A stretch of 44,371 bases of DNA. It comes from a virus. Below the pieces are notes generated by a model. That model did not search any database. It was not told the origin of the DNA and saw only the letters and a program-made list of their open reading frames with translations. This document shows, in pieces, positions 406 to 43,920 of this stretch. A program made the translations under genes and the position numbers. The stretch covers positions 1-44,371 of the IMG/VR virus record IMGVR_UViG_3300050821_001788; one strand, given 5' to 3'. Each line of letters opens with the position of its first letter. The first letter of the stretch is position 1.

Positions 406-848
406 TAGATATGTCTCCAAGTGTGCCGATGTTTTATTTGATAGATAACATTTCGATTAACGCCGAATAGTTTACTGATTTCTTCGGCATTAAGGGTATT
501 TTCAGTAAGCAACCGTCTTATTTCAATTACTTGTTCTGGTATCAAAATGCGTTTGCCCAAAACTAGTCGGCCCTTACCAATCATATCATCAACATTATCT
601 TGCTGTGTACCAAGAAATAAGTGTGCCGGATTTACGCATGGAGGGTTATCACATGAATGTAATACCTTCATATCATTTGGTACATCTCCAACACAAAGAT
701 CATATGCTACTCGATGAGCTTTCTGGGGATTACCCAAAACGCTTATGATGCCGTAGCCACCATCATTACGGTACCCAGAATATTCCCAACACCCGTTATT
801 GCAAACGATCGCACGAGAGAATAAACGATCGAATAGCGTATCAGACAT
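405..848 (-). CDS. HNH homing-type endonuclease with C-terminal helix-turn-helix
   Basis: A 147-residue protein of the HNH_3 type. The core reads HRVAY (45-49), then H64-x-C66-x4-C71-x-N73-x2-H76, the usual metal-binding nuclease core. Residues 103-145 (PEQVIEIRRLL, EEISKLFGV, IYQIKH) form a short helix-turn-helix that probably recognises the target site. Such free-standing endonucleases nick or cut DNA and spread themselves between phages. The ATG at 848 overlaps the upstream TGA (TGATG) and has AGGAGG 5 nt before it. The gene is visibly richer in A and T than its neighbours, which suggests recent arrival. It sits among small early genes and is unlikely to be needed by the phage. Confidence 0.85.
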   Translation of the reverse strand: MSDTLFDRLFSRAIVCNNGCWEYSGYRNDGGYGIISVLGNPQKAHRVAYDLCVGDVPNDMKVLHSCDNPPCVNPAHLFLGTQQDNVDDMIGKGRLVLGKRILIPEQVIEIRRLLTENTLNAEEISKLFGVNRNVIYQIKHRHTWRHI

Positions 849-12247: not shown

Positions 12248-12763
12248 ATGCCTTTTACTCTCAACTATCTTCGATCCATTCTAGACTACGATCCGTTTGA
12301 GACCGGTCTATTTACTTGGCGTCAGCAAGTTGGCCGCCGTGTAAGGGTTGGTGAAGTTGCAGGGTCTTATGATAAAGACGGCTATATTGTAATTCAAATC
12401 GGTGGTGTTAAATATAAGGCTCACCGATTAGCCTATCTCTATATGACTGGAGAATGGCCTGAGGAAGAAATCGATCACAAGGACGGCGACCCAGCAAATA
12501 ATGTCTGGAGCAATCTTCGTGATGCGACGCGTAGCGATAACTGCGCAAACTCTAACCGAGAATTAGGCGAGTCCGGCTTCAGAGGAGTCAAGTGGGTCCC
12601 GAGTACCAGAACTTGGATTGCAAGGGTCTCATACGGATATCAGCGGATATGTCTCGGACCGTTTGGCACAGCAGAGGAAGCTAACGAAGCCTACTTAGCT
12701 GCTGCTAAGACTGTTCACGGAGAATACGCTCTCCACAATCGACACCCTGAAACAGGAGCATAA
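12248..12763 (+). CDS. HNH homing endonuclease with AP2 DNA-binding domain
   Basis: A 171-residue protein. HRLAYLYMTGEWP and EEIDHKDGDPANNVWSNLR (about 59-91) form an HNH_3 nuclease core with D76-H77 and two asparagines, and residues 109-160 (GFRGVKW, WIARV, LGPFGTAEEANEAYLAAA) are an AP2-type DNA-binding domain. This pairing is typical of free-standing phage homing endonucleases. It is inserted between the scaffold and major capsid genes, where no host-range or assembly role is expected, and is somewhat richer in A and T than its neighbours. Ribosome site GAGGAAA precedes the ATG. Confidence 0.92.
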   Translation: MPFTLNYLRSILDYDPFETGLFTWRQQVGRRVRVGEVAGSYDKDGYIVIQIGGVKYKAHRLAYLYMTGEWPEEEIDHKDGDPANNVWSNLRDATRSDNCANSNRELGESGFRGVKWVPSTRTWIARVSYGYQRICLGPFGTAEEANEAYLAAAKTVHGEYALHNRHPETGA

Positions 12764-40150: not shown

Positions 40151-41424
40151 AGCAGGTTCCCATCCTGATCAATATCCGGGACTGTGGCTTTATACATCCG
40201 CAGTCCCGTTTTCGGATCGAGATTCGTCGCCCGCAGCATCCCTGCCTTTTCCATGATCCCGATGACCCGTTCGATCGAATGCATTGGGATATGTTCCTTG
40301 GCGAAGTTGATTATCTTCCGCTCCGCTACTGGGCCTCGGGCTCCGATGGTAAGCACGTAATGGTATATCTCATCCATTGCTCGGGCGTCTGCATTACCAG
40401 CACCCGCTTTGAAGATATCTGGCATGGTTGATTCTGCTTCAATAAGCCAACCAAGTGCTCGGTTGAAGTCGTCTTTGGTAAGGAGTAGCACGTCACTACG
40501 ATCGATTGCAGAGACCATTGAGAGTTTGTACAGATGAACTCGTCGTCTTGTGGCATAGTGTATAAGCTTTGGGTGTGATACTTGCGGGGGCTCTCCGAGA
40601 GTTCGCCAGTTGTTGACAGCGGTTCGGTAGTCTGGTGTAACCTCAAACTTACCAACAAGGCCAGCGATAGCATTGAGATCATGTACAAGCTCGGGACTAG
40701 GGCCAGCCGCAGTCTTGATTTCAAAGTCATCGCCGATACTCCGTTCGTCTGAGAAGATCATAATCACCCGCGAGGTGAAGCCTTGTTCCCATGCGGTCTC
40801 TGGCATGTATTTCATTAGGTTGGAAGGAGTAGTGCCACATATGAGGTTGAGTTGCGGGGATTTGATTTTGATATTAAGGTCATTTCCACGTCGCGTTTGG
40901 CCATAGGGTTGAGGATCATAGAAGTCCGACATAACGCCAATAGCTTCATCATCGTATTTATGCATGAATGCTGAGAGTTCATCAGCGGTAATATAGATGG
41001 TATTGTATTCAAGTTGATCCAGGTCTTTTCCATTTGTAATCACCACGTTTCGTTTCGATTTTGCCACCGCATCGATCATCGAACTCGCACTCATACTCGT
41101 TGGCGCATTCCTCGGGTCCGGCGTCTCCAGATAATACTTCTTCGCGGCTCGGATACTCCGCGTCTTCCCCACCCCCGGATGGCCGACTAAGAAGCAGTAG
41201 ATGTTAGGATGCAATCTCTCATTCCCCGAGATCACATACACCCGCTGCTCGACCGCCGCAGCGATCGTCGATATCGCGGCCCATTTCCGAAACAACTCCG
41301 GCGACTCAAGCGCGGCCGTTGCCTCGACGAAGGATTCGATCCAAGAGCGACACTTGCGGCTGGCGTCGCCGTTGGTCTTGGCCGGCGTAGTCTTTAAGTC
41401 CGTCTGGATTAGCTTCACTGACAT
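40144..41424 (-). CDS. P-loop ATPase, DUF3987-like (putative replicative helicase)
   Basis: A 426-residue protein. Walker A is GHPGVGKT (81-88), Walker B IYITADEL (143-150, D148 and E149), with a serine- and threonine-rich sensor region (LNLICGTTPSNLMKY) and an arginine-finger-like TSRVIMIFSDE. It begins near residue 25 with WIESFVEATAALESPELFRKWAAISTIA, the pattern of DUF3987-type phage ATPases that act as helicase or helicase loader. I chose the ATG at 41424; an in-frame ATG at 41478 lacks a ribosome site. The first 119 nt overlap the end of the polymerase gene. Confidence 0.75.
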   Translation of the reverse strand: MSVKLIQTDLKTTPAKTNGDASRKCRSWIESFVEATAALESPELFRKWAAISTIAAAVEQRVYVISGNERLHPNIYCFLVGHPGVGKTRSIRAAKKYYLETPDPRNAPTSMSASSMIDAVAKSKRNVVITNGKDLDQLEYNTIYITADELSAFMHKYDDEAIGVMSDFYDPQPYGQTRRGNDLNIKIKSPQLNLICGTTPSNLMKYMPETAWEQGFTSRVIMIFSDERSIGDDFEIKTAAGPSPELVHDLNAIAGLVGKFEVTPDYRTAVNNWRTLGEPPQVSHPKLIHYATRRRVHLYKLSMVSAIDRSDVLLLTKDDFNRALGWLIEAESTMPDIFKAGAGNADARAMDEIYHYVLTIGARGPVAERKIINFAKEHIPMHSIERVIGIMEKAGMLRATNLDPKTGLRMYKATVPDIDQDGNLLQ

Positions 41425-42811
41425 CGCCCTTGTTCCACCCCACTTTACAGTCGTAAGGAATCCGCAACACGCGACCATGCTGTAACGGGATTTCTTCGAC
41501 GAGGTCTTCTTGTAGCGCTGGGATTATTTCATCTTCGAGTTCCTCGGGGTACATGAAGGTAAGCGCGTCGTGGTCTTGCATCATTAGGATCGCGGTGCGC
41601 TTGCGCCAGATGCGGAGCATGGCTCTATTCACGATATCCGCAAGACTTCCTTGAGGATCGTATGCAATTGCTTCACGAAGCGTACTCGGGTCGTTTCGTC
41701 TACCGAAGAACCAGCGCTTGCGTCCACTAAGCGAAATAAGATATCCTTCTGTGCGAAGTCGTCGATCAACTGATCCGTGCCAAAGGAGGTGAGCAGGAAA
41801 TGCTTGAAAGTACTTTGGCTGGAAGTCTCTGACAACGGTTTCTGGAAGCTTGGCTTGTCCTGCGAGGGTCTTTGGTTGTCCACCATAATTCGAACCGTGT
41901 CCGAGCTTCTTACACATGAAACGATAACTGTAGTGTCGGTAATACGGACGTTCGGCGATATGCTTATCTCGATTGAGGTCACCGGTCCATCCAAGTTTCG
42001 ACCAGCAGATTCTAGCAACAGCTGTATGCACATCTCCAGATTCGACGGCATCTAAGTATCTCCCATCTTTGAATAGATTCCACTCGATCGCTCCAACGCA
42101 GTAGCTCTCTCCGGACTTAGCGTCGAACTTTGCGAACTTATATCCTGGGTCCGCAACGAAGATAGATCGAAGTAGCTCTTCAACGTTCTGAAGGTTTCCT
42201 CCAGTACCGAATTCGGAGAAGGAGGACGAGAATCTTCCCGTGTTAGTGCCTGCAATATTATACGAAGTTCGCATTCTTCCATCGGGATCGATTCCTGTTT
42301 TGAGTACGGAGATTTTCTTAGCAAGGTCCCGCATGGCCATCAGATGCGCTACGATTGGCTTTGCGATAAGATAGACTTCCATCTTCTCTAGCGCGGTGCG
42401 GTCTACAGTGGGTCGGCCCTTGGATCGGATCACGGGGATTTGCAGGTGTTGGTAGAAGAGCTTATGGAGATCGGGGTTGGAGCGCCAGCTGAACGTCGGC
42501 ATCCCGACACCGTCGAGGACGATCTGTTCTAGCTGCTGTTCTAGCTGGTCGATTTTGTCGTGGTAGGTGTCGATGACCTCTTGCTTCCGCCCCTGATCCA
42601 CCAATACGCCCCGCAATCGCATCTCCAGAGTCGGGCCTTGTAAGGCTCTAGAGAATGTATAGGTGCGTCTGGTACAATCATCCAATTGGGGTATAATAGT
42701 TTCAAGTACTTCCAATGTGACAACGCAATCCAGTCCATTATAAACTTGGTCTCGTTCCCATTGGTTTGTGACATCATCCGGCTTTGTTTCATCGGTGTTG
42801 ATGATCCTCAT
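41306..42811 (-). CDS. Family A DNA polymerase, polymerase part plus exonuclease motif III
   Basis: A 501-residue protein. Residues 20-40 hold VYNGLDCVVTLEV, the YxxxD motif III of a DEDDy proofreading exonuclease whose motifs I and II lie in the upstream ORF. Then come SNPDLHKLF (111-119), TGRFSS (191-196), motif A with D230 and E235 (DAKSGE), motif B around YRFMCKKLGHGSNYGG (296-311), and motif C QDHDAL (412-417), with GRKRWFFGR between. The normal motif C HDE is HDA here. It replicates phage DNA. The ATGA overlap with the upstream ORF at 42808-42811 couples the two. The final tail overlaps the ATPase gene. Confidence 0.9.
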   Translation of the reverse strand: MRIINTDETKPDDVTNQWERDQVYNGLDCVVTLEVLETIIPQLDDCTRRTYTFSRALQGPTLEMRLRGVLVDQGRKQEVIDTYHDKIDQLEQQLEQIVLDGVGMPTFSWRSNPDLHKLFYQHLQIPVIRSKGRPTVDRTALEKMEVYLIAKPIVAHLMAMRDLAKKISVLKTGIDPDGRMRTSYNIAGTNTGRFSSSFSEFGTGGNLQNVEELLRSIFVADPGYKFAKFDAKSGESYCVGAIEWNLFKDGRYLDAVESGDVHTAVARICWSKLGWTGDLNRDKHIAERPYYRHYSYRFMCKKLGHGSNYGGQPKTLAGQAKLPETVVRDFQPKYFQAFPAHLLWHGSVDRRLRTEGYLISLSGRKRWFFGRRNDPSTLREAIAYDPQGSLADIVNRAMLRIWRKRTAILMMQDHDALTFMYPEELEDEIIPALQEDLVEEIPLQHGRVLRIPYDCKVGWNKGDVSEANPDGLKDYAGQDQRRRQPQVSLLDRILRRGNGRA

Positions 42812-43920
42812 TTATCTCTACCTATCGTCTCCATCTTCCGCTCCGACTTCCAAGGTCCGTGATCAGTATAAATCGACCCAAGATACCCTAAGCCTTTGAG
42901 GCTTTCCGGCTGGAGCGCGTGGTGGAGGAGCATAGTGTCTTCGACGGCTGAAAATGTACGGATGCCGTAAGCTCGCCAGAGGAAGGCGATGTCGTAGAGC
43001 CCGTTTTGGAAGACCTTGGGTATCGATCCATCCTCAAGAACCGAACGTATAAGTCTCCAACACTGTTGTTCAAGCTCTTTAGTAGGCCAATAAGATCGGC
43101 TCTTTGTTCGTTCGTCATGGATAGGTATAACGATTGCAAGGTCGTGTCTTGGAGCGAAGCCAATGCATGTAATTTGGTTGCCACTGGTTTCAATATCGAC
43201 GGAAAGGATTTTACAGCCTTTAATGAATCGCTTGATGAATGTTCTAATGTAAGCGATCTCCGGCTCGATCCAGATTTCGCACTTCGGTCTGCGCACATCA
43301 GGGTAATCCTTTTCTTTGTTGATCTTCGTCAGGTCCGCTACCGTCGTCGGTCTGAGTTCCCATTGCCGCGTGACCGCAGCAGGGTGATAAGTACACAGAA
43401 GCTTGTAACCAGAGACAGTATGACTACTGGTACAAGTAGTCCCACGAAGCTTCGTGATACCAGTCCGACCGCCCAAAGCCCACAGAGCAGAGTTACCCAA
43501 AGCAACAATGAGATTTGGATCGTGAGCGAGTATTTCGTCACCAAGGCGATCCAGTTCATATTGGAACTCCTTTCGTACGTAGCCGGATTTGATCAGGGCT
43601 GGGAAGGCAGGGATCGATCCGACCTTCGGCCCACAGAAGAACTCTAGCTTATTCCCTGGCGGATGCTGTTGAAAGACGTTCGTCCGATAGACCTCAGGAT
43701 GCAATTCCCAGATCGCGTCTAGGCACCACGGGTCGTATGTTCGATAGTACTTCCCCATGAACTCTCGGTCAGAGGAGGTGAACTGAATCACCCCCGCATC
43801 GTTCAGCATGCGGAGGAGTTCAGCGCCCGAAGGACCAACGAACCCGCGACCGATTTTGGCTTCTTGTTCGCCTTGGGCCTCGCCTACCAAAAATACGGGA
43901 GTTGAAGAACCCATACTCAT
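42808..43920 (-). CDS. Uracil-DNA glycosylase fused to N-terminal part of proofreading exonuclease
   Basis: A 370-residue protein. Residues 1-200 are a uracil-DNA glycosylase of the family 4 type: GEAQGEQE (13-20), FVGPSGAELL (27-36), LIVALGNSALWALGG (137-151) and YHPAA (178-182). Residues 236-350 are the first part of a DnaQ/Pol I-type exonuclease: motif I D242-I-E244, motif II with N306 and D310 (FQNGLYDIAFL), then EDTMLLHHAL; motif III lies in the polymerase ORF. It would remove uracil from DNA and, with the polymerase, proofread. The iron-sulphur cysteines of typical family 4 enzymes are not clearly placed. ATGA overlaps join it to both neighbours. Confidence 0.88.
   Translation of the reverse strand: MSMGSSTPVFLVGEAQGEQEAKIGRGFVGPSGAELLRMLNDAGVIQFTSSDREFMGKYYRTYDPWCLDAIWELHPEVYRTNVFQQHPPGNKLEFFCGPKVGSIPAFPALIKSGYVRKEFQYELDRLGDEILAHDPNLIVALGNSALWALGGRTGITKLRGTTCTSSHTVSGYKLLCTYHPAAVTRQWELRPTTVADLTKINKEKDYPDVRRPKCEIWIEPEIAYIRTFIKRFIKGCKILSVDIETSGNQITCIGFAPRHDLAIVIPIHDERTKSRSYWPTKELEQQCWRLIRSVLEDGSIPKVFQNGLYDIAFLWRAYGIRTFSAVEDTMLLHHALQPESLKGLGYLGSIYTDHGPWKSERKMETIGRDK

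Follow-up and report, generated by a model that had tools for sequence, protein, structure and literature searches.

The virus record IMGVR_UViG_3300050821_001788 (44,371 nucleotides, hereafter the window) carries two open reading frames (ORFs) that overlap by four bases, and the proofreading exonuclease site of a Pol I-type DNA polymerase is divided between them. Does the phage build one proofreading polymerase from two proteins, does it join the parts into one chain, or has the exonuclease been lost? We consider it very probable that the phage makes a family A replicative polymerase from two polypeptides with a composite proofreading site, and that an old fission of the gene has become a gene slot.

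The features of the two ORFs are collected in Table 1. A sequence-only reading of the window had placed exonuclease motifs I and II in the glycosylase ORF, YNGLD at the start of the polymerase ORF and an ATGA overlap between them; all of these are located as claimed. It had further proposed that the two fragments have the motif order of a single Pol I-type enzyme, and this is borne out: the family profile aligns with Klenow in one continuous stretch that contains the three exonuclease motifs and the polymerase (E 1.8e-57). In this alignment three profile segments meet the catalytic residues of Klenow: DiET covers D355 and E357, qNglYD covers D424, and YnglD covers Y497 and D501. Since the family profile was aligned with Klenow, the assignment of the motifs is alignment-based and not made by eye. 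All three exonuclease motifs of a DEDDY family A polymerase are thus present, spread over two chains. ORF1 ends 12 residues past an invariant W357-K358 pair, and ORF2 starts 23 residues before motif III. In a Foldseek search the uracil-DNA glycosylase (UDG) domain matches family 4 UDG and UdgX.

Table 1. Features of the two polymerase ORFs in the window
Feature	Position	Strand	Remarks
ORF1, UDG-like domain and N-terminal part of Pol I-type 3'-5' exonuclease	42808..43920	-	370 aa
UDG superfamily domain, ORF1 residues 6-193	43342..43905	-	Pfam PF03167, E 3.4e-13
DNA_pol_A_exo1, N-terminal part, ORF1 residues 232-347	42880..43227	-	Pfam PF01612, E 4.7e-7
Exonuclease motif I, ORF1 D242-I-E244	43189..43197	-	Conservation and alignment to Klenow motif I
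Exonuclease motif II, ORF1 N306 to D310	42991..43005	-	Conservation and alignment to Klenow motif II
ORF1 C-terminal tail TIGRDK, putative docking element	42811..42828	-	Family form T[IL]K[RK][ED]x
ATGA, overlap of ORF2 start and ORF1 stop; split point, gene slot in relatives	42808..42811	-	
ORF2, exonuclease motif III segment and family A polymerase	41306..42811	-	501 aa
ORF2 N-terminal head MRIINT, putative docking strand	42794..42811	-	T6 conservation; strand in read-through model
Exonuclease motif III, ORF2 Y24-NGL-D28	42728..42742	-	Conservation
DNA_pol_A domain, ORF2 residues 81-459	41435..42571	-	Pfam E 2.3e-30
ORF2 palm D230, D415; HDA instead of HDE	within DNA_pol_A domain	-	

An ORF with a DUF3987 domain (helicase/primase-like) overlaps the 3' end of ORF2 (41306-41478 of the window), and its nearest possible start lies inside ORF2 in 37 of 40 relatives as well.

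The sequence-only reading had suggested looking for the split in related genomes. We used the best 80 of 190 confirmed IMG/VR relatives for ORF2 and 16 for ORF1, a further scan that gave the best 80 of 299, and a scan with a distant seed, L146, which is 43% identical to the window; this last scan added 80 more loci, the best 80 of at least 535. The close set (n = 78) leaves out five duplicate-contig loci (L087, L090, L091, L093 and L094), the loci L001-L005, and also the loci in which one part is missing (L009, L023, L030, L042, L056, L062, L077, L089, L097 and L098). In the wider set 84 loci were examined, consisting of the 80 scanned loci together with L146, L147, L099 and Caulobacter phage Kuura. 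ORF1 is absent from the stretch in four of the 84, at contig edges in L206, L247 and L265, and in L226. In the last of these the record does hold both parts, but some 5 kb separate them, occupied by long ORFs that by eye look tail-fibre-like; either the slot has received a large insertion or the contig is chimeric. Among the matches listed, every locus that has both parts shows the split at one shared position, 78/78 in the close and 80/80 in the wider set. The usual, if not strictly defining, arrangement of exonuclease and polymerase in a single chain is therefore absent from these 158 loci.

Could the true product still be one continuous chain, made by frameshifting or hidden by a sequencing indel? 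The motif order over both ORFs is that of a single Pol I, and the overlap in the window is just four bases. Against this, the distance between ORF1 and ORF2 ranges from -4 to +1591 b among the relatives listed, with other genes filling the gaps, and all three relative frames occur (gap modulo 3 of 2, 0 and 1 in 60, 53 and 46 of 159). A canonical slippery heptamer is found in 0/22 of the four-base overlaps when the last 48 nt of ORF1 are searched, and a separate contig, L086, has a junction identical to that of the window. Joining by frameshift is impossible where whole genes stand between the parts, so that programmed frameshifting is refuted for the family, and an assembly or sequencing indel would not be common to 158/158 loci. 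We regard a continuous product as next to impossible. The earlier proposal had left the choice between two non-covalent pieces and frameshift joining; its first half is favoured by the split in all two-part loci, the whole genes between the parts in most of the 121 loci with inserts and the retained catalytic residues, while the second half falls.

Joining by a split intein or by splicing of an intron has precedents in phage polymerases, such as the split intein described for MIJ3 PolB (PMC6892783) and the polymerase introns described in Bastillevirinae (PMC11878797). At this locus, however, the 12 residues after W357-K358 and the 23 before motif III leave no room for intein parts, an intron has no place where the ORFs overlap (gap of -4), and most gaps are filled by coding ORFs. 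We give this explanation very little credence. A split intein was rejected as no N- or C-parts are present at the ends of the halves, and an intron of group I or II between the halves as Rfam gave no match and the gaps are mostly coding: at gathering threshold 0 introns were found in 17/17 loci searched, including the 14 loci with an endonuclease in the slot and L140.

The halves directly adjoin each other in the same frame in four loci, L034, L037, L063 and L072, the first two being nearly identical copies, and the stop of ORF1 is TAG in 4/4. Among loci with inserts of at least 100 b TAG ends ORF1 in 1/47. Recoding of TAG is unlikely in L072, because its ORF2 also stops at TAG. It is possible that leaky read-through of TAG yields some fused enzyme in these four.

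Next, we studied conservation in 159 sequences including the window (134 clusters at 90% identity). On the ORF1 side D242 and E244 are kept in 154/154 readable rows of the 159 and D310 in 159/159; on the ORF2 side Y24 is kept in 159/159 and D28 in 158/159, far more than chance would give. Sequences down to about 40% identity retain the DEDDY residues of either half, and W357 and K358, beside the break, are found in 159/159. In the polymerase part, D230, K301 and D415 (palm motifs A and C and the Lys of motif B) are present in 156/156 readable rows of 159.

A sole locus, L088, has His replacing the Asp of motif III, and its contig stops soon after. The residue that matches position 762 of E. 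coli Pol I is His in 156/156 readable rows of 159, and motif C of the polymerase is mostly HDA or HDS and not HDE (regions 301-309 and 413-416 of ORF2); the accessible text of PMC6302109 discusses only Tyr, Phe and Leu at position 762.

The exonuclease might be a dead remnant, the split being tolerated because proofreading is out of use and ORF1 being retained just for its UDG domain; the retention of these residues on either side of the break to about 40% identity, together with the W-K pair, speaks against it. What could be said for a dead remnant is that ORF1 alone is not predicted to complete an exonuclease fold. In an AlphaFold2 model of ORF1 alone (alignment A2, window first) the protein is well modelled except for residues 331-370, where the mean pLDDT is 43-54. 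These residues are the helices after motif II, the last ones of the exonuclease, and they are unfolded in this model. On balance, we find a dead exonuclease improbable.

A model containing both halves could be obtained from L037, where just one TAG and one more codon separate ORF1 from an ORF2 in the same frame, so that the read-through was folded unaltered. The AlphaFold2 model has a mean pLDDT of 90.8 and a pTM of 0.86; the blocks over 321-350 reach pLDDT 96, 89 and 87, which brings the helices left unfolded in ORF1 alone to 87-96, while the junction at 361-370 has 38. A strand is modelled at 374-377 in the ORF2 head. Compared with Klenow (1kln), residues 209-846 of the model superpose with Z 29.2 and rmsd 3.8 over 555 residues, exonuclease and polymerase together. 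The halves are here linked artificially into one chain, and the alignment differs from that of the ORF1-only model. The model fits a composite site in which the break would lie in a flexible loop. Most likely, a single proofreading polymerase forms by non-covalent assembly of the two proteins.

The expression and assembly can be pictured as follows. The ribosome would terminate ORF1 and initiate ORF2 at the ATGA overlap; a Shine-Dalgarno-like core precedes 12/22 of the overlapping ORF2 starts, which makes translational coupling plausible. Of the functional parts, ORF1 would bring the UDG and the first two exonuclease motifs, and ORF2 motif III and the polymerase. The two chains would then assemble non-covalently into one Klenow-like enzyme, and the two-metal DEDDY site would be completed across the ORF1/ORF2 interface, presumably with exonuclease activity.

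Both ends at the break show conserved forms. In the ORF1 tail T365 is found in 142/154 readable rows of 159, and a loose pattern of the tail motif in 117/159; the ORF2 head has the form M[KR]II.T with T6 in 151/159. The intact relatives, which have about 18 residues from W-K to motif III, lack both forms there. Co-evolution of ORF1 and ORF2 by distance correlation gave no clear pair-specific signal, as the two correlate no better with each other than either does with the neighbouring DUF3987 gene (r of 0.83, 0.87 and 0.83 among ORF1, ORF2 and DUF3987; partial r 0.40).

At the break lies an old gene slot in which other genes, homing endonucleases among them, have settled. Among the matches listed, 121/158 loci have inserts of at least 100 b between the halves. 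Forward ORFs fill at least 90% of the insert in 108 of these 121 (median cover 100%), and in 105/121 they run from the ORF1 stop to the ORF2 start. At the next junction downstream, that of ORF2 and DUF3987, a gap of at least 100 b is seen in 2/40 loci, compared with 24/40 of the same loci at the split. The window has no insert between ORF1 and ORF2, hence no endonuclease in its break; two HNH_3 endonuclease matches lie elsewhere in it, at 591-722 (-) and 12413-12541 (+).

Recognisable endonucleases occupy the slot in 11/78 close and 3/80 wider loci, that is 14/158, and also in L140. In the close set they are HNH (L018, L020, L028, L033, L046, L084), endonuclease-VII-like (L012, L017, L031) and LAGLIDADG (L011, L074); the calls for L018 and L020 come from PHROGs, and that for L011 from a weak Pfam match, with a PHROG labelled HNH endonuclease. 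The slot of L021 contains a 38-residue piece that clusters with HNH genes, and in the wider set HNH-cluster genes are found in the slot of L235, L238 and L239. Sister loci can carry unrelated kinds: L011/L012, L074/L084 and L031/L033 on starred branches, and L017/L018 with support 86. We counted these families over 49 records (the window's own record plus the records of 48 close loci out of the 78; 1.22 Mb), in which the slot makes up 0.8% of the bases. All Endonuclease_7 and LAGLIDADG_3 matches are in the slot (5/5), as are 4/17 of the HNH_3 matches above cut-off. Another 50 records gave 3/12 for HNH_3 above cut-off, so that HNH genes are also frequent outside the slot.

Other genes use the slot as well. 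A DUF1937 gene (nucleoside deoxyribosyltransferase-like group) is in the slot of 56/80 wider-clade loci, including L146, and in 0/14 records of the subclade of the window, anywhere in the record. A link between the UDG, the nucleotide hydrolase-like DUF1937 protein and the replicase is possible. Further inserts match KTSC, deoxynucleotide monophosphate kinase and MazG.

Alignment with intact family A polymerases had been proposed as a check; besides the collinearity with Klenow, single-chain relatives exist. L003 and L004 encode intact chains of 779-810 aa, and UDG, exonuclease and polymerase are together in one chain in Microcystis phage Mel-JY34, at 810 aa, in MW202489, at 779 aa, and in most of L100-L138. 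Homologues that are intact in relatives are thus two ORFs here, as expected for a gene in pieces. In trees of the polymerase part the starred branches require that the gene was split twice at this loop, once in the ancestry of Kuura, L099, L146 and all window relatives, and once in that of L140. The latter is inside the intact clade, and its sister L135 is intact. Its ORF1 ends a few residues past W-K and is followed by a 145-codon gene, the end of which is overlapped by the GTG start of ORF2. This inserted gene matches HNH endonuclease PHROGs (3377, 8.8e-28; 2081, 2.4e-24), and PHROG 2081 is listed among the endonucleases of DNA polymerase introns (PMC11878797). A gene of endonuclease type can therefore occupy a fresh break at this loop, as L140 demonstrates. 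The sequence-only reading had mentioned neither the slot with its endonucleases nor this second split.

The old fission in the loop between exonuclease motifs II and III, which is common to a large phage clade, most likely started with an inserted homing-type endonuclease or cargo gene, and the break has become a slot that genes enter and are lost from repeatedly. Against an endonuclease as the origin it can be said that the window is without an insert and that just 14/158 loci have a recognisable slot endonuclease. The first fission might also have been made by DUF1937 or another cargo gene, or by a stop-restart mutation, with endonucleases arriving later in an existing slot. The 56/80 wider loci with DUF1937 in the slot would agree with this, as would the place of this gene two genes upstream of the polymerase in intact Mel-JY34 and the fact that endonucleases are found in just three of the 80. 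Against it stand L140, the one recent independent split, with an HNH-type endonuclease in the break, and the loci L117 and L123, which are split at the border of UDG and exonuclease, with an HNH_3 gene there in L117. We see this order of events as quite possible, while being more inclined to doubt it than to accept it.

Another break point lies shortly before polymerase motif A, in L005, L114, L118, L119, L120, L125 and Vibrio phage VS-ABTNL-3, in the region that holds the intron of SPO1 gp31 and also the break of MEP401. From the breaks at the loop, at the UDG/exonuclease border and before motif A, it follows that this polymerase lineage has been broken repeatedly, in two or three places.

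Several known systems resemble parts of this picture. In phage Aeh1 a ribonucleotide reductase gene is broken in a functionally critical region by a homing endonuclease, mobE, and the two polypeptides, NrdA-a and NrdA-b, are described as giving a fully functional enzyme (PMC2988022). That case concerns one phage; here the split enzyme is a DNA polymerase of family A, it is found throughout a clade, and several unrelated endonuclease families occur at one site. A replicative polymerase in two parts is also described for Aeromonas phages 25 and 44RR, whose gp43A and gp43B are T4-like family B proteins separated by a seg endonuclease or an untranslated spacer; those of phage 25 are reported to co-purify with polymerase activity (PMC2988022). 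In contrast, the polymerase described here belongs to family A, its cut interrupts the catalytic site for proofreading, and genes of diverse kinds are inserted. In the OM43 phages MEP401 and MEP402 a family A polymerase is likewise encoded by two ORFs, which flank a small unknown one, but there the cut is inside the polymerase domain and the exonuclease is whole in the first ORF; the authors suggest an intron (PMC10580990). The same domain order and catalytic motifs, unsplit at this site, are found in Mel-JY34, MW202489, SPO1 gp31 (with an intron elsewhere, shortly before polymerase motif A) and, as described, PaBG gp205 (PMC7412058). As in the fractured gene of MIJ3 PolB, an HNH gene lies between the polymerase parts in some loci, but unlike in MIJ3 no intein parts are present here (PMC6892783). 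In the open-licence literature we found no published account of this polymerase split. What differs from the Aeh1 and gp43 precedents is the enzyme family, the position in the proofreading site, the fixation throughout a clade and the turnover of unrelated endonucleases at one site.

A further-reaching reading, which we would put near an even call and slightly short of it, is that the enzyme is an obligate two-subunit replicase with its proofreading site at the interface, where each partner has its own docking end. The split would then no longer be reversible, because each partner would have evolved such an end, and homing endonucleases of at least three unrelated families, as well as nucleotide-metabolism genes of the DUF1937 type, would enter and leave the slot since the phage pays no price for an insertion at that point.

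The phages with the divided proofreading site form a large and mostly uncultured group, and annotation misses the proofreading half of their polymerase: ORF1 of Caulobacter phage Kuura, the single isolated phage in which we encountered the split, is annotated as a hypothetical protein. If the proposed assembly is true, it would be a natural and long-standing fission and reassembly of an enzyme within a replicative polymerase. It would make testable the route from a broken gene to a fixed two-subunit enzyme, the tuning of proofreading by subunit supply, and the role of an old break as a safe harbour for selfish endonucleases.
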